From the NCBI GenBank assembly GCA_025462925.1, contig JAOAPL010000348.1:1-34721 (forward strand): a stretch of DNA of 34,721 nt. Reading direction: 5' to 3'. The notes under the pieces are model-generated. The model worked only from the letters and a program-made list of their open reading frames with translations. It ran no database searches and was not told where the DNA came from. Of this stretch, positions 1 to 29,617 are shown in pieces; within the stretch, counting starts at the first letter, position 1, and the number at the start of each line of letters is the position of its first letter. Source of the stretch: Acidobacteriaceae bacterium. GTDB taxonomy: Bacteria; Acidobacteriota; Terriglobia; Terriglobales; Acidobacteriaceae. Both the position numbers and the translations under genes were made by a program.

Positions 1-1528
1 CATCTGCTCTCCGCACCGCTACATCCCACTCCTCGCGAGACCACGCCTGATCTCCCCACCACTCACCTGAGTTCCGCCACGGCCCTGCCAACGCAACCAC
101 TTCAGCGGATGCTCTGCTTCCATTCAGCAGCAAACGCGCAGGCACACCGTTGCGCAATTCAACTTTCACTGGCAATGCAGGACGAAACATGCGCACTGCG
201 TTAGCAACGTGTGGCACAGCCGCACTCGGCTGTGCGCGCTCCACCCCTGTCGTGAAATGCCGCATAAGAACTGCATCGGGCTTGTGCGTGTCCATCAACA
301 CCGGCGAGCCAACCCGTTCGGCTACATTCACATTTGCTGGCTCCAACTTCTGGCGACTAGATTTCTTTCCCAGCCCTTGGACCACATTGCGGATCCGCGC
401 CAACGTAAGTTCCATGCGCTCCGGTTCAGGCGATGCAGGAACAAACAGCCCGCCCTGAGCCGCTCGCGCCCGCGCGGCTTCCGCGATAAGCGTGATCTTC
501 TTTACCGGCCACGACGGCGGACTCGACTGCAAATCCAATTGCAGCAGCTTGAGAAATACTTTGCCGTCCCGCATCGGCACCGGCAACCGGATGACGCGCT
601 CGTGAAAGTCTTTGCTGACTACTGACTTCTGACTACTGACTACTGCTCTCTGCACATCCTCATTCACTTCCAACTTCAACCGCATCCGCAATTCATTCGT
701 CGACAACGCCCGCGCCGCCAATCGCGTGCAAAGCTGTTCCAGAAGCCGCGATAAGATGAAAGCCAGCGGCTCCAGCAGATCCACCGCATCTTCCAACTCC
801 ATGCTCTCTTCAAAATGAAGCTGCGCTTCCGCCGGAACAATCGTCCGCGAAGTTCTGCCCAGAGCGAGCGCCTGTAATCGCAATCCCTCTTGACCTAAAC
901 GCTCGGACAAAGCCAACGGTGGCAACGCCGCCAAAGAACGCAGGTTGCGCACGCCCCAGCGGTTGAGCGTCTCCAGGATTTCTTCCGACGCGCCGAGCAC
1001 ATCGATCGGCAAGCACCCCAACCGCTCCGCCTCCTTGCATTGCGGGATCACCGTGATTCCCGGAAACCCGAGCGCAGCGTGCATCGCCGCATCAGGATTG
1101 GATGCCACCGCCACGTTCGCTTCCAATCCCATTCCCGCTGCATGTCGCAACAACTCCCGCGCAATGCTCTGCACCGGACCAAACAATTGTTCCAGCCCAT
1201 GCAGATCAACCATGATGGTGTCCGGTGTAGTCGATTCCACTCGCGGAGAAAATGTCTGCCCGCAATCGAGCAGCGCCGCGTGCGCCGATTCTTCCTGCGC
1301 CAGTGATCGCCGCAGCAACGTCACTTGCGGACACGCCTCGGCTTGCAACTTCGTCATCCCCGCAGCGATTCCCGCGTTGCGTGCTTTTTCATTTACAGTA
1401 ATTACGGTGACGATCGGAGGCGTGCCCTCCAGCACCGCCACCGCTTTTTCGCGCAAGCCGGAAGCATCGCAATGTCGCACCACCGCCTGCACGGGAAAAT
1501 CAGGGACGTATATACAGGCAAAAGGCAT
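1..1528 (-). CDS. imuB: ImuB-like Y-family DNA polymerase homologue (partial, runs off left edge)
   Basis: Open on the minus strand from an ATG at 1528 to the window edge, giving at least 509 codons with no stop. It starts with MPFACIYVPDFPVQAVVR, the fold position of the Y-family palm, and continues with a VDLHGLEQLFG block, a helix-hairpin region (LGASEEILETLNRWG) and a little-finger domain. The catalytic carboxylates of active Y polymerases (the DFD at the N terminus and the SIDE motif) are absent, as is typical of ImuB. ImuB is known as a non-catalytic scaffold of the DnaE2 mutasome that binds the beta clamp. The gene starts 6 nt after the stop of imuA, so the two are probably one transcript. 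dnaE2 would be expected further left, outside the window. Two repeat-derived segments lie in frame: a palindrome at 215-234 and a CTGACTACTG tract at 615-645. Confidence 0.88.
   Translation of the reverse strand, partial: MPFACIYVPDFPVQAVVRHCDASGLREKAVAVLEGTPPIVTVITVNEKARNAGIAAGMTKLQAEACPQVTLLRRSLAQEESAHAALLDCGQTFSPRVESTTPDTIMVDLHGLEQLFGPVQSIARELLRHAAGMGLEANVAVASNPDAAMHAALGFPGITVIPQCKEAERLGCLPIDVLGASEEILETLNRWGVRNLRSLAALPPLALSERLGQEGLRLQALALGRTSRTIVPAEAQLHFEESMELEDAVDLLEPLAFILSRLLEQLCTRLAARALSTNELRMRLKLEVNEDVQRAVVSSQKSVVSKDFHERVIRLPVPMRDGKVFLKLLQLDLQSSPPSWPVKKITLIAEAARARAAQGGLFVPASPEPERMELTLARIRNVVQGLGKKSSRQKLEPANVNVAERVGSPVLMDTHKPDAVLMRHFTTGVERAQPSAAVPHVANAVRMFRPALPVKVELRNGVPARLLLNGSRASAEVVALAGPWRNSGEWWGDQAWSREEWDVAVRRAD
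215..234. repeat. Palindromic repeat inside imuB
   Basis: CACAGCCG and CGGCTGTG arms around a 4-nt loop, preceded by GTGG. The same element occurs at 1617-1636 in imuA with the same arms and one loop change. It is read in frame as part of the ImuB protein (around ERAQPSAAVPH). Confidence 0.75.
615..645. repeat. CTGACTA-type short tandem tract inside imuB
   Basis: A 31-bp run built from CTGACTA / CTGACTT units, in frame within imuB and encoding VVSSQKSVVSK. It looks like an inserted low-complexity repeat rather than conserved polymerase sequence. Confidence 0.6.
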
Positions 1529-3867: not shown

Positions 3868-5049
3868 TTACAGATTCTTCTTCATCGAATCCAGCCCGGC
3901 TTTTATGTTCTCTGGTGAGGTCGAGAATGAAAATCGCAAGTGTCCTTCTCCGTGCTGGCCAAAGACGATTCCGGGCACGGTTGCCACTTGCGCAATCTCG
4001 AGCAGGTGGGAGGCCGCTCTGCGGCTATCGCGATCGATTCGCGTTACTTCCGGGAAGGCGTAGAACGCTCCCGGCGGCATCGGACATTTCAAGCCCAGCG
4101 AGTTCAGGCCGTTGACCATCAAGTCGCGACGCTTTCGATAGGCCGCGCGCATCTCCGCAAAAAATTCGATCGGCGTTGCTAATGCCGCCAGCGCCGCCCA
4201 TTGTGATGGTGTCGAGACGCCGTTCGTCGAATACAGCGTGGTCTTGCGCAGTCCCGTCATCCACGGTTCCTTCGCCACCACATACCCAACGCGCCATCCC
4301 GTCATCGAATATGACTTTGAGAGCGTAAAGCAACTCAGCGTGCGCTCGAACATCTCCGGTAGTGAAGCGATGGAAACATGATCGCCGTCATAGACCAAGT
4401 CTTCATAGGCTTCATCGGAGAAGACGATCATGTCGCGGTCGCGCACAAATTTCGCCACTGCTTCCGCATCCGTGCGGGTGAAAACCACGCCACTCGGATT
4501 CTGCGGAGTGTTGTAGTAGATCGCGCGAGTGCGAGGGTTGGAATACTTCGCCAACGTCTCCGCAATTCCATTCTGGCGCGCTTCTTCGGTCGAAACAAAA
4601 ACCGGTTTTGCTTGCGAATATACGATCAAGTCTTTGATCGGAGTCCAGAACGGAGAGAACATCAGGACTTCATCGCCGGGATTCAGCACCGTCTGGAACG
4701 ATCCAAAAAGTCCTTGCATCCCACCGTTGACCACGATGACATCTTCCACTTTCGCGGGAATGCCATTGCGCTCGGAGACCTTCTTTGCGATCGCCTGCCG
4801 CAATTCCATCACGCCGGACGACGGCGCATATCGCGTCTTGTTGTCGCGAAGGGCGCGGCTCATCGCATCTTTTATGTGGTCGGGTGTGGCCAGGTAAGGT
4901 TCGCCACCTTCGTACTGGTGGACTTGTACTCCCTGCGCCCGCAGGTCCATTACCTTATTGCGGATCTGAACGATATCGGAAAAGCCAACTTGCTCCAGGC
5001 GGTCGGAGATGCGGAATCGTGCGGATGTGGAGATCGGTGTAGAACTCAC
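3868..5049 (-). CDS. PLP-dependent aminotransferase, class I/II (aspartate-aminotransferase fold)
   Basis: 393 codons from a GTG at 5049. The frame is open to a TTG at 5118, but no ATG occurs before the conserved core, and GTG gives a typical N terminus (SSTPISTSARFRISDRL). Motifs of fold-type I aminotransferases are present: YAPSSGVMELRQAIAKK, NGGMQGLFG, YYNTPQNPSGVV, SDEAYEDLVYDG and the Schiff-base lysine in SKSYSMTGWRVGY (about Lys245). It should transfer an amino group between an amino acid and 2-oxoglutarate or a similar keto acid in the cytoplasm. The substrate cannot be read from the sequence. It is a single-gene unit. A dispersed repeat ends directly at its stop codon. Confidence 0.9.
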   Translation of the reverse strand: MSSTPISTSARFRISDRLEQVGFSDIVQIRNKVMDLRAQGVQVHQYEGGEPYLATPDHIKDAMSRALRDNKTRYAPSSGVMELRQAIAKKVSERNGIPAKVEDVIVVNGGMQGLFGSFQTVLNPGDEVLMFSPFWTPIKDLIVYSQAKPVFVSTEEARQNGIAETLAKYSNPRTRAIYYNTPQNPSGVVFTRTDAEAVAKFVRDRDMIVFSDEAYEDLVYDGDHVSIASLPEMFERTLSCFTLSKSYSMTGWRVGYVVAKEPWMTGLRKTTLYSTNGVSTPSQWAALAALATPIEFFAEMRAAYRKRRDLMVNGLNSLGLKCPMPPGAFYAFPEVTRIDRDSRRAASHLLEIAQVATVPGIVFGQHGEGHLRFSFSTSPENIKAGLDSMKKNL

Positions 5050-26815: not shown

Positions 26816-27613
26816 ATGGCTGAACAAAGATCTGGGAATTTTCTCGAGTCGCCGGCTATTGCCGCGGGCAGGCGCCTGCGCGATGTCCGTGAGCGCCTCG
26901 GGCTGACACTAAGATCGGTAGAGGAAGCCAGCACGCAACTTGCATTGTCATTTAATAACATCGAATTCGGTATCCCGCCCAGCCGTCTCTCAGATATTGA
27001 AACTAAAGGGGTTCTGCCCAGCATTTACCGGCTGCAATCCTTGGCGATCATCTATCGAGTGAGCTGGGATGAAGTTCTTTCTTGGTATGGCATTGAGCTC
27101 ATGGCCAAGGTTCCGGATCTTGAACTGCTGTCAGCGCCCAAGACTCATTTGATCCAGGGCAGCAACCTTCCCGATGAGATTCGCCTGCCCTTGCGTTTTG
27201 ATCCCAGCCTGGATTTCTCCAAGACTGCCAATTTGGGAATGTTCATTCAGAAGTGGGGTGTGTTGCCCACGACATATTTGACCAGCTTTGCCTCAGACAA
27301 TTTCAGCTACGGTTTCATCGGCAGTCAGGACTACACCATGTATCCCATTCTGCCGCCGGGATCGTTCATCCAGATCGATCCCGCAAAGAGTCGGGTCCGG
27401 AAAGCGTTGTGGCGTTCCGACTACGAGCGTCCAATATATTTTCTGGAGACCCGAGAAGAATCCTTGTGCGGTTGGTGTTCGATCCGCGACGGAAAGATCA
27501 TCCTGCAACCTCATCCTATGTCGCCGGCGGAGATTCGCATCATGCGCTGGCCGCAGGAGGCCGAAGTCATCGGTCAGGTGGTGGGGGCGGCGGTTCGTCT
27601 TGGCGGCGACTGA
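26816..27613 (+). CDS. XRE-family regulator with S24-like C-terminal domain
   Basis: 265 codons from ATG 26816 (MAEQRSGNFLESPAIAAGRR), AGGA upstream. The frame is open to 26543 but the upstream part is not protein-like. An N-terminal Xre helix-turn-helix (RRLRDVRERLGLTLRSVEEA, PSRLSDIETKGVLPSIYRLQ) is followed by a C-terminal beta domain (GSQDYTMYPILPPGSFIQID, RPIYFLETREESLCGWCSIR) resembling LexA/CI-type S24 domains, except that the usual nucleophile Ser is Thr (YTMYP), so self-cleavage is doubtful. It may sense a ligand or bind as a plain repressor. The end overlaps the convergent gene by 47 nt. Confidence 0.82.
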   Translation: MAEQRSGNFLESPAIAAGRRLRDVRERLGLTLRSVEEASTQLALSFNNIEFGIPPSRLSDIETKGVLPSIYRLQSLAIIYRVSWDEVLSWYGIELMAKVPDLELLSAPKTHLIQGSNLPDEIRLPLRFDPSLDFSKTANLGMFIQKWGVLPTTYLTSFASDNFSYGFIGSQDYTMYPILPPGSFIQIDPAKSRVRKALWRSDYERPIYFLETREESLCGWCSIRDGKIILQPHPMSPAEIRIMRWPQEAEVIGQVVGAAVRLGGD

Positions 27614-28007
27614 GTCGCCATTGGATCAGGCTGCGTAAAGTCGTGAGAGTCAGCTCAAAGTGTTTCTGCGATCCTCCCGCTAAATGAGACGGAAGCATCG
27701 GACGGCGGCTTAACCACAGTTCCTCGACGTACTCTTCCTCGGGCAGGTTCTGCTCCACCGCATTCTCAGTTACTTCTTCCATCAGCGTCGCAACTGGTTT
27801 TCGCAAAACGTCGACGAAAACCTCCGAATGCGCGGCGCCTAGTGCTGAACGTGTCGCTTCGTTCCCGTATCGTTTGGAAAGGCCCCAGTGTTCGTACTCT
27901 CCGGAGTCTTTTCGCAATGCGGCAAGGTAGGCAAGCTTGTGCCAAATGCCGGGCACAACTGCCAAAGTCCTCTTCACGAAATTCTCGAGCGATTCCACTA
28001 CGTCCAT
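27567..28007 (-). CDS. Conserved-looking hypothetical protein convergent with the XRE regulator
   Basis: 146 codons, ATG 28007. An N-terminal helical part (MDVVESLENFVKRTLAVVPG, IWHKLAYLAALRKDSGEYEH) precedes a GLSKRYGNEATRSALGAAHS stretch and an acidic LPEEEYVEELWLSRRP segment; the last residues are proline-rich. The 3' end overlaps the regulator by 47 nt on the other strand. I recall similar genes in Acidobacteriota but no function. Not a membrane protein. Confidence 0.65.
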   Translation of the reverse strand: MDVVESLENFVKRTLAVVPGIWHKLAYLAALRKDSGEYEHWGLSKRYGNEATRSALGAAHSEVFVDVLRKPVATLMEEVTENAVEQNLPEEEYVEELWLSRRPMLPSHLAGGSQKHFELTLTTLRSLIQWRLSRRQDEPPPPPPDR

Positions 28008-28127
28008 TTTTTAAATCCTGCTTTTCGGAAAAACGTAACATAGCACATAGTTAATCCGTTTCAACCACACAAGCGCATCCTCTGCCCATTGCATCGGCAC
28101 ACTGGCCGGGCTAAATGAGGAGGAATT

Positions 28128-28268
28128 ATGAAAAAGCGTTTGCTGTTGTTCGTAGCGGTTGTCATTATGGCAGGTTCAGCTCTGGCCACGGCCCCACAAA
28201 AAGATGGCGGGCAGCCACCCGATCTCTGCCCTCCGGGTACGGTCTGCGCTCCTGGCGGCATTGCTTAA
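28128..28268 (+). CDS. Secreted two-cysteine peptide (46 codons)
   Basis: ATG 28128 is preceded by GAGGAGGAATT, a near-perfect ribosome site. Residues 1-20 (MKKRLLLFVAVVIMAGSALA) form a textbook signal peptide. The predicted mature 26 residues contain QPPDLCPPGTVCAPGGIA, with two cysteines six residues apart. It stops at 28268, ahead of a long hairpin and the membrane-protein gene at 28347. Family unknown. It could be a secreted signal or a small periplasmic peptide. Confidence 0.7.
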   Translation: MKKRLLLFVAVVIMAGSALATAPQKDGGQPPDLCPPGTVCAPGGIA

Positions 28269-28304
28269 TTCCCATTTTGGGAAACGTCCCAACGAAAGTA
28301 ACTT

Positions 28305-28346
28305 GTTTGCTGCTGCTGAAGCGGCTAAGCTTCAGCAGTAGCAAAC
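28305..28346. promoter_or_regulatory. Long hairpin ending at the start codon of the membrane protein
   Basis: GTTTGCTGCTGCTGAAGC (28305-28322) pairs with GCTTCAGCAGTAGCAAAC (28329-28346), 18 bp with one G-U and a 6-nt loop. The 3' arm ends immediately before ATG 28347, so the hairpin occupies the ribosome-binding region. No T run follows, so it is not a plain intrinsic terminator. Confidence 0.8.
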
Positions 28347-29081
28347 ATGCACACCTATTCATTCACGCAATACGCGATTTGGGTGCTATCGCCGCTGCTA
28401 TTGCTGGCGACAGCGTATGTCATGCACCGGCAACGGCAAGTCCGTGAATTTCCCGCTTTCCTTGCATATCTGATCTGGGTAGCTTTGATCTCCTACTTCC
28501 AGTTGGCCCTCCATCTGTTCAAATCGCAACTTCATTTTTACAGTTACTGGATCACGCAGGGGATCGCCATCGGGTTAAGTTTCGTCGTGCTGTATGAGGT
28601 CTTCCGTTTCGTACTCACCTCAGGCACTCTCCCCGTAAACAAATCCACGTTCATGCTCATCAACGCTGTGTTGCTTGTAATAGCTGCAGTGATCGCACTC
28701 GTGTTTCAAGGCGCCGACACAGACAAAACGATCTACACGATCATGGTTTTCACCCGAACGGTTCGAATCGTCCAGGTAGGACTCATGCTCATTTTGGTTG
28801 TGCTCTCAATTTCGTTTGGCTTCTACTGGAGTAGTCAGGCGTTTGGCATCACTTTGGGGTTCGGATCGTATGCGGCTGTGGAACTGGTGAACAACACCGT
28901 CCGAGCCATGCTCGGGCCGCAAGGGAACAGTATTTGGTCCCAGGTCTCTGTGCTTTCTTTTCAGTGTGCGGCATGTATCTGGCTGGCTTATGCCGCAAAA
29001 GGACGAAAGTTACCTGTTATGGAGCTGCCCGACCATAAAGTTTCCCTCTGGTCTGAGCCGATAGAAAGGTTAACCAAATGA
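28347..29081 (+). CDS. Polytopic membrane protein of unknown function (about 7 spans)
   Basis: 244 codons, ATG 28347. Hydrophobic segments: YAIWVLSPLLLLATAYVM, FLAYLIWVALISYFQLAL, YWITQGIAIGLSFVVLYEVF, FMLINAVLLVIAAVIALVF, VQVGLMLILVVLSISFGFYW, then a weaker FGITLGFGSYAAVELV and VLSFQCAACIWLAYAA. The soluble tail (KGRKLPVMELPDHKVSLWSE) is cytoplasmic or periplasmic depending on topology. Family not recognised. Start and stop are linked to its neighbours: a hairpin abuts the start, and the stop overlaps the next ATG. Confidence 0.78.
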   Translation: MHTYSFTQYAIWVLSPLLLLATAYVMHRQRQVREFPAFLAYLIWVALISYFQLALHLFKSQLHFYSYWITQGIAIGLSFVVLYEVFRFVLTSGTLPVNKSTFMLINAVLLVIAAVIALVFQGADTDKTIYTIMVFTRTVRIVQVGLMLILVVLSISFGFYWSSQAFGITLGFGSYAAVELVNNTVRAMLGPQGNSIWSQVSVLSFQCAACIWLAYAAKGRKLPVMELPDHKVSLWSEPIERLTK

Positions 29082-29617
29082 ATGTACCCCTCATTTTCGT
29101 GCTAACTGGCATCGCGCTTGTTTCGGGCCTGTCTCTGTTAGCCATCATGCGCCAACGCGCCGGCCAACTCACCGGCACTGAAGACTTCGAAGCCCGCTGG
29201 CAGCAAGTGGATATGGCTGCATTCATGAACCTTTCCGATCCGATGGAAGAGCGGTTCTTGCAGCGAAACCTTCCCGCCGCAGAATTTCAGCGCATACAAC
29301 GCCAACGAGTGATCGTAATGTGGGAGTATCTCTCCCGGTTGTCTGCTAATACGAAGCTGATGGTCCAAGCTGGACAGATCGTTCAACACACAACCGTTGG
29401 TGATGCGGCAGTCACTGCGCGGCAATTCGTATCCAGTGCCATGCAAACGCGTATGGCGATCTTTATGGCGGAAGCGTCGCTGGTTTTGAAATTCGTGTTT
29501 CCCGCCACAGCCGATCCGATCCACGAGTTGGTGCGGAAGTACGACTCGCTGTCGCAGCGTTTCGCCCAGACATGGACGGAACACAAGCTGGCCGGAGTCA
29601 CATCGGCCGCCAGCTAG
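29078..29617 (+). CDS. Single-span membrane-anchored protein coupled to the polytopic protein
   Basis: 179 codons, ATG 29078 overlapping the previous stop (ATGA). An N-terminal anchor (VPLIFVLTGIALVSGLSLLA) is followed by a soluble helical domain (TGTEDFEARWQQVDMAAFMN, LQRNLPAAEFQRIQRQRVIV, VMWEYLSRLSANTKLMVQAG). Family unknown. Coupling implies it acts with the membrane protein upstream. Confidence 0.75.
   Translation: MNVPLIFVLTGIALVSGLSLLAIMRQRAGQLTGTEDFEARWQQVDMAAFMNLSDPMEERFLQRNLPAAEFQRIQRQRVIVMWEYLSRLSANTKLMVQAGQIVQHTTVGDAAVTARQFVSSAMQTRMAIFMAEASLVLKFVFPATADPIHELVRKYDSLSQRFAQTWTEHKLAGVTSAAS

Follow-up and report, generated by a model that had tools for sequence, protein, structure and literature searches.

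The locus studied here raises two questions: whether a 46-codon open reading frame (ORF) just ahead of a membrane-protein gene encodes a genuine secreted peptide and, if so, what that peptide does. The locus lies in a 34,721-nucleotide stretch of DNA from an Acidobacteriaceae bacterium (assembly GCA_025462925.1, contig JAOAPL010000348.1, positions 1 to 34,721 of the forward strand), hereafter referred to as the window. The original prediction had taken the ORF for a secreted peptide gene preceding an operon, and had proposed a peptide-sensor or peptide-export module. Comparison with related genomes leads us to favour, as the probable though by no means assured reading, a peptide signal and a cognate, private seven-transmembrane (7TM) receptor.

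A conserved gene for a secreted-type peptide

The ORF occupies positions 28128–28268 of the forward strand, and its translation, read from the sequence, is MKKRLLLFVAVVIMAGSALATAPQKDGGQPPDLCPPGTVCAPGGIA followed by a stop codon. The ribosome site had been called near-perfect, and the Shine-Dalgarno sequence AGGAGG does indeed stand at 28118–28123, 4 nt before the ATG. Codons 1–20 (28128–28187; MKKRLLLFVAVVIMAGSALA) have the features of a signal peptide, and codons 21–46 (28188–28265) would form the mature peptide, which holds the conserved core KDGGxPPxxCxPGxxC at codons 25–40. Reading by the AXA rule, with no predictor, places the likely signal-peptidase site between A20 and T21, which would probably give TAPQKDGGQPPDLCPPGTVCAPGGIA (26 aa) as the secreted peptide or, alternatively, a shorter form starting at DGG. 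The predicted signal peptide and two-cysteine tail therefore stand, whereas the mature start that had been proposed, at QPPDL..., gives way to the likelier A20/T21 site.

Each of the five genomes in the genus has the peptide, and the homologues outside the window's own genome were detected with E values from 1e-8 to 6e-22 and at identities from 87% down to 59%. Between the window's own genome (G000) and G002, the sole length change is a single in-frame 3-nt deletion, and 13 of the 14 changed codons fall in the tail, where a dN of 0.20 against a dS of 0.80 indicates a synonymous bias. The signal-peptide part (codons 1–22) is 98.5% identical at the DNA level, with a dS of 0.06. Upstream of the peptide genes, a sigma70-type promoter was weakly enriched (13 observed vs 5.7 expected).

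Linkage of the peptide to a 7TM gene across the family

We fetched 137 loci with homologous 7TM genes, of which 120 were left after a clade with a C-terminal 'MFE...' motif (n = 17) had been excluded. A filter for small ORFs with a Shine-Dalgarno sequence, a basic N-terminus and a hydrophobic segment, which is a heuristic and not SignalP, detected a secreted-type ORF before 98 of these 120 genes, at a median of 76 nt upstream. The same filter was positive before 7 of 203 other long genes, none of them with a two-cysteine tail; these controls were neighbours in the same loci and not genome-wide ORFs. It misses peptides that are present at two loci, L071 and L075. The conservation, the frequency before control genes and the linkage to the 7TM gene rule out a chance ORF, and the co-occurrence with the membrane-protein gene extends family-wide.

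No upstream peptide was found by the filter at any of the 17 'MFE' loci. This subgroup is the only clear peptide-less set and forms one clade (support 90 in a quick tree); it includes L063, L072–L074, L077, L080, L081, L085, L087 and L088, and further L091, L217, L219, L220 and L222. Its members carry a C-terminal MFEGMVDRAFSR-like extension and have a fixed neighbourhood, with a 700-aa thioredoxin-like protein encoded on the other strand. Possibly, they are orphan receptors that arose by a single loss of the peptide.

Within the window's GTDB family, 192 of 200 genomes carried the 7TM family, with 1–13 copies per genome, and 68 of 71 genera were represented. A phylum-wide draw of 149 genomes gave it in only two genomes outside that GTDB family, and the named relatives, from a narrow alignment, were eight Acidobacteria/Terriglobia MAGs. 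In genus g160, there are up to 13 7TM genes per genome, most of them with different peptide tails. We considered spread by mobile elements or plasmids and rejected it, the representative 7TM protein having no plasmid match.

The window's own genome has a second pair, L070 (G000:C191, 7TM gene at 4049–4933 on the minus strand), with the peptide MQKTLRFVAVVLFAVATAAVARTPISKNVVLHEGSSPMPSCYPGQICQ. Pairs of this type adjoin dnaN-dnaA in several genera, and where enough of the locus is covered (L062), gyrB is seen on the other side. Two species of genus g160 carry near-identical pairs (L186 in G300 and L205 in G264; 97% DNA identity) alongside strongly diverged ones, which suggests a recent transfer of a whole pair between them.

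Composition, cleavage and repeats of the peptides

The mature peptides across the loci are about 14–26 aa long, rich in Pro and Gly, and usually contain two Cys. Among 87 precursors, 63 have exactly two Cys within the last 25 residues, mostly spaced by 4–6, and 11 have Cys-free tails; Pro makes up 22% of the tail and is frequent at positions -2 and +2 of the first Cys. The tail would probably be closed by a disulphide. In 25 peptides, the residues right after a signal-peptidase-like site are DG or GG (GD in one of them), and the mature forms of these would mostly be 13–22 aa long (median 17).

Some precursors are repetitive. The orthologue in G001 (L052, G001:C56:167372-167730) contains four units based on KDGGSPPPMCIPGANC in tandem, of which the initial one is degenerate, so that the core KDGGxPPxxCxPGxxC is present 3–4 times in this longer precursor. 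Cores repeated in 2–4 copies were found in at least six loci (L052, L055, L178, L183, L185 and L212), an argument for regarding the mature peptide as the gene product. A separate arrangement was seen at L214 (G180:C1, about 2216300), where two near-identical, full peptide genes in tandem are followed by one 7TM gene.

The downstream gene encodes a predicted seven-helix membrane protein

The seven-span protein that had been noted downstream is encoded at 28347–29081 on the forward strand (244 aa), and its AlphaFold2 model (pLDDT 89.6) is a helical 7TM bundle followed by a C-terminal amphipathic helix. By the positive-inside rule, the N-terminus is predicted to be outside and the C-terminus inside, with positively charged intracellular loops. 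The cytoplasmic half is the better conserved one in all seven helices (mean entropy 2.24 vs 2.84 for the outer half, p 1e-7), and this conserved face suggests a common intracellular partner.

Searches with 27 members gave no meaningful match to a Pfam or NCBIfam family and no kinase domain in the 244-aa protein. The best match to a bacterial 7TM receptor profile was 7TMR-DISM_7TM, which was not significant (E 0.055, one of the 27 members), and profile comparison with the PDB gave no sequence relative (best value 0.37, to an unrelated protein), a result still compatible with remote kinship. In the structure searches, Foldseek weakly matched class B GPCRs and rhodopsins (best E 0.03), and the top 50 VIA-align matches were nearly all GPCRs with Z scores of 11.7–14.3, a range in which helical bundles reach about 13–14 by chance. 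This result is suggestive of a GPCR-like fold in the model, and not proof of one. A microbial rhodopsin was rejected, as helix 7 (about residues 192–218) has no Lys in its membrane part; W212 is the conserved residue there.

A promoter-like palindrome separates the peptide and 7TM genes

Between the peptide stop codon and the 7TM start codon there are 78 nt, and these hold a promoter-like element at 28303–28331 (TTGTTT, 17 nt, TAAGCT) with no Shine-Dalgarno sequence after it. The element is overlapped by a predicted 19-bp inverted repeat at 28304–28347, with a 6-nt loop at 28323–28328 and a 3' arm whose last base is the A of the 7TM ATG. Both features recur: the pattern TTGnnn-16..18-TAnnnT precedes the 7TM start in 60 of the 87 peptide loci (3.6 expected from shuffling), and 55% of these loci vs 9% of shuffles have a strong stem that abuts the start codon, while only 20 of the 87 have a Shine-Dalgarno sequence before the 7TM gene. 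Stems in the peptide-less clade were not above background.

Within the genus, 95.7% of the stem cells are paired in the five genomes vs 30–61% when the stem is slid along the alignment, and both sides have changed at three pairs, although with few sequences the statistics are modest. Rfam gave no match at the hairpin, and a known RNA element was rejected on that ground. L054 (G003:C215) departs from the other four genomes of the genus: about 200 nt separate its palindrome from the 7TM start, possibly through an insertion or a changed start.

The simplest reading of this arrangement is that the 7TM transcript would be near-leaderless, and that the hairpin would end or stabilise the peptide mRNA and mask the 7TM start on a read-through transcript. 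According to one estimate, about 13% of the genes in Acidobacteria are leaderless (PMC3160421). Since the 78 nt with the promoter-like palindrome intervene, it is uncertain that the peptide gene belongs to the operon in which the original prediction had placed it.

The peptide tail and the 7TM protein diverge together

Nucleotide identity between G000 and G002 is 91–94% across the HTH gene, the 146-aa gene and the region upstream of the peptide gene. It rises to 98.5% across the signal peptide, falls to 74% over the last 18 peptide codons, recovers to 93% in the palindrome, drops again to 71% in the 7TM gene and stands at 87–88% beyond. The dS of the 7TM gene is 1.7 vs 0.31–0.57 for the flanking genes, with 0.70 for the peptide tail and 0.31 for the XRE gene. 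Three further pairs showed the same island: L065/L070 (7TM dS saturated vs 0.32–0.39 in the flanks), L183/L186 (0.85 vs 0.10–0.22) and L058/L079 (7TM 74% vs 94% upstream identity), the last being judged on nucleotide identity because the frames of its flanking ORFs are partly uncertain. Thirteen peptide-bearing pairs were compared, of which these four clearly show the island and several are too diverged to judge. One 7TM allele is common to L237 and L238, and likewise to L216 and L235, and there is no 7TM island in these pairs. The peptide-less control L217/L236 also has none (7TM dS 0.41 vs 0.43–0.46).

Between close species, the signal peptide, the HTH gene, the 146-aa gene, the third gene and the outer flanks are thus alike, whereas the tail and the 7TM protein diverge together. 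The high 7TM dS is hard to obtain from selection on the protein alone, and implies a divergent allele that either replaced another or was retained for long. Ligand-receptor specificity is expected to leave a block of this kind, which swaps as a unit and consists of a mature peptide and an outward-facing membrane protein; by analogy, the tail and the 7TM protein can be described as a specificity island like the agr and comQXP pherotypes.

Neighbouring genes of the window's locus type

Loci of the window's type have a five-gene cassette (XRE, 146-aa, peptide, 7TM and single-span helical genes), and all five are present in the window. The last two are the coupled pair of the original prediction, now confirmed by an ATGA overlap that points to translational coupling: the 7TM gene ends at 29081, and the gene for a 179-aa protein runs from 29078 to 29617 on the same strand. 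AlphaFold2 (pLDDT 87.3) gives the latter one N-terminal TM helix and a cytoplasmic helical domain; family searches gave no match for it, and the fold search none of significance. Of 118 loci, 39 have a homologue immediately after the 7TM gene, and 37 of these 39 also have a peptide.

The XRE-type HTH protein (265 aa; 26816–27613, forward strand) was matched by HTH_31 (E 4e-5) and HTH_3 (E 9e-5), neither of which reached the Pfam cut-off. Pfam gave HTH matches only, with no TPR hit. Its C-terminal domain is conserved and uncharacterised, and the conserved half (GYIGSxDxTMYPxLxPGSFxQID...) has what we take to be a resemblance to a LexA/S24-type fold without the catalytic serine. At 23 loci, of which 22 have a peptide, a homologue stands in the corresponding position; the protein is a probable regulator of the cassette. 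Convergent with this gene is that of a 146-aa uncharacterised protein (27567–28007, reverse strand), which has no Pfam match and a same-place homologue in 19 loci.

No known peptide-modifying or processing enzyme was found among the XRE, 146-aa and single-span neighbours, nor did we identify a recognised effector, such as a kinase or G protein, for the 7TM protein. The other peptide-7TM pairs of the same genomes occur without these partner genes. A defence system was also considered and rejected: the single PADLOC match (JetB, E 0.023, to the third gene) was weak and was taken as chance.

Discussion

In the mechanism that we propose, the 46-aa precursor would be exported by Sec and cut by signal peptidase, perhaps a second time before DGG, to release a short Pro/Gly-rich peptide that is probably closed by a disulphide. 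The 7TM protein encoded just downstream, with its N-terminus outside and its C-terminus inside, would sense this peptide, and its conserved cytoplasmic face and tail would relay the signal to a partner in the cytoplasm. For loci of the window's type, this partner would probably be the coupled single-span helical protein; that is a guess about a protein that is missing from about two thirds of the loci. The XRE protein would be a possible transcriptional output. As the 7TM gene appears to have its own promoter inside the palindrome, ligand and receptor could be expressed in different amounts.

Of the two halves of the predicted module, the sensor is favoured by the co-divergence of tail and 7TM protein, by the predicted GPCR- or rhodopsin-like topology and by the conservation of the cytoplasmic half. 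Export of the peptide by the 7TM protein was rejected, because the latter has no transporter signature and the peptide has a Sec-type signal peptide of its own; a transporter would also not be expected to diverge with one peptide, which leaves the export half unsupported.

The main rival to the signal-receptor reading, which we regard as unlikely, is a bacteriocin with its immunity protein, where the peptide would inhibit close relatives with other alleles and the 7TM protein would protect the producer. Small, secreted, Pro-rich two-cysteine peptides beside a membrane protein would suit such a system, as would several pairs per genome, and the allele blocks of tail and membrane protein between close species are likewise expected from an arms race. 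However, bacteriocin loci are patchy, whereas the 7TM gene is near-universal in the family and sits at fixed positions, such as that between gyrB and dnaN-dnaA. The conservation peak in the cytoplasmic half is more typical of signalling than of protection against an external agent. A 7TM clade without the peptide has persisted, and the representative 7TM protein has no plasmid match.

Somewhat less likely still is that the peptide acts in cis in the membrane or periplasm, without cell-to-cell signalling, as a subunit or exported cofactor of the 7TM protein (e.g. one that binds a metal or is redox-active through CxPxxxC). The strict pairing, the two spaced Cys and the Pro residues at -2 and +2 in most peptides agree with this, and co-divergence is expected of any binding pair; yet tandem-repeat precursors and hypervariable or Cys-free tails are not what one would expect of a metal site or of a subunit in fixed stoichiometry. 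Least likely, and improbable in our judgement, is a leader or secretion-monitor ORF of the SecM, MifM or VemP kind, where translation and export would control the 7TM gene via the hairpin and the peptide would have no role outside: a signal peptide and a Pro-rich C-terminus are indeed followed by a hairpin over the 7TM start region, but this hairpin begins anywhere from about 10 to over 90 nt past the stop codon, which seems too variable for opening by a stalled ribosome, the 7TM promoter inside it would allow transcripts that lack the ORF, the core repeats and the cleavage site directly before DGG point to the mature peptide as the product, and the model gives no part to the co-divergence of the tail with the 7TM coding sequence.

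The signal-receptor reading has its closest parallels in ComQXPA and agr, where a precursor gene adjoins the gene of a membrane receptor (as at 98 of the 120 7TM loci here) and where peptide and receptor co-diverge between conserved flanks (as is clear in four of our 13 pairs). The agr system is known for a pherotype-type divergent block of peptide and receptor alleles. For ComQXPA, two reports describe the peptide and the sensing part of the receptor as a divergent allele block in otherwise similar chromosomes (PMC4408185, PMC4008528). In those systems the receptor is a histidine kinase, whereas here it would be a stand-alone 7TM protein with no kinase domain; neither a modification enzyme of the ComQ/AgrB type nor a response regulator was identified in our loci, the signal peptide is an ordinary Sec one, and the host belongs to the Acidobacteriota and not to the Firmicutes. 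By analogy, the pair would work like a pherotype-type pair, yet without the histidine kinase and modifying enzyme that define one.

Other systems share single features with it. The 7TMR-DISM, 7TMR-HD and LytS-type proteins (the latter including BtsS, PMC10653868) are also seven-helix membrane sensors, but have attached cytoplasmic output domains, which the protein studied here lacks. The eukaryotic peptide GPCRs may resemble it in the predicted seven-helix fold, with the N-terminus outside and the C-terminus inside, and in having a short secreted peptide as ligand; there is, however, no detectable sequence homology, the fold match is within the range of helical bundles, and no G proteins are expected. 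Alpha-factor, the ligand of yeast Ste2, is made from a tandem-repeat precursor, and some of the precursors described here similarly have repeated cores. The RRNPP systems (PlcR-PapR, Rap-Phr, ComR-XIP) have a small Sec-exported or pro-peptide signal encoded beside a regulator, as might be said of the 23 loci with a nearby XRE gene, but in RRNPP the peptide is re-imported and bound by a TPR protein in the cytoplasm, whereas the gene with the tightest linkage and co-divergence at our loci is that of the membrane protein, and the XRE gene does not co-diverge. Finally, SecM, MifM and VemP share the order of signal-peptide ORF, hairpin and membrane-related gene, and differ in the variable hairpin distance, the downstream promoter, the repeated cores and the co-diverging tail found here.

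A more far-reaching version of the proposal, which we put forward only tentatively, is a peptide-hormone system with stand-alone GPCR-like receptors, in which each genome would have 1–13 private pairs of cyclic peptide and 7TM protein, the alleles would be swapped between specificity groups, and the output would pass through a non-kinase, single-span helical adaptor. If true, this would be a class of bacterial cell-cell signalling without prior description; the mainly open-access journal literature that we searched on peptide signalling or GPCR-like peptide receptors in Acidobacteriota contained nothing relevant. The signalling reading, if right, would mean that pherotype-like specificity groups exist outside the Firmicutes, and it would offer a simple, kinase-free receptor for asking how a bare 7TM protein signals. 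Under the rival readings, too, there is a near-universal, fast-diverging pair of peptide and membrane protein, with a promoter embedded in a palindrome, that calls for an explanation. The Acidobacteriota are among the most abundant phyla in soil, and if the signalling reading is true, a whole family of them would communicate by peptides through proteins that have escaped annotation, namely a peptide below the usual ORF cut-off and a 7TM protein with no Pfam or NCBIfam entry.
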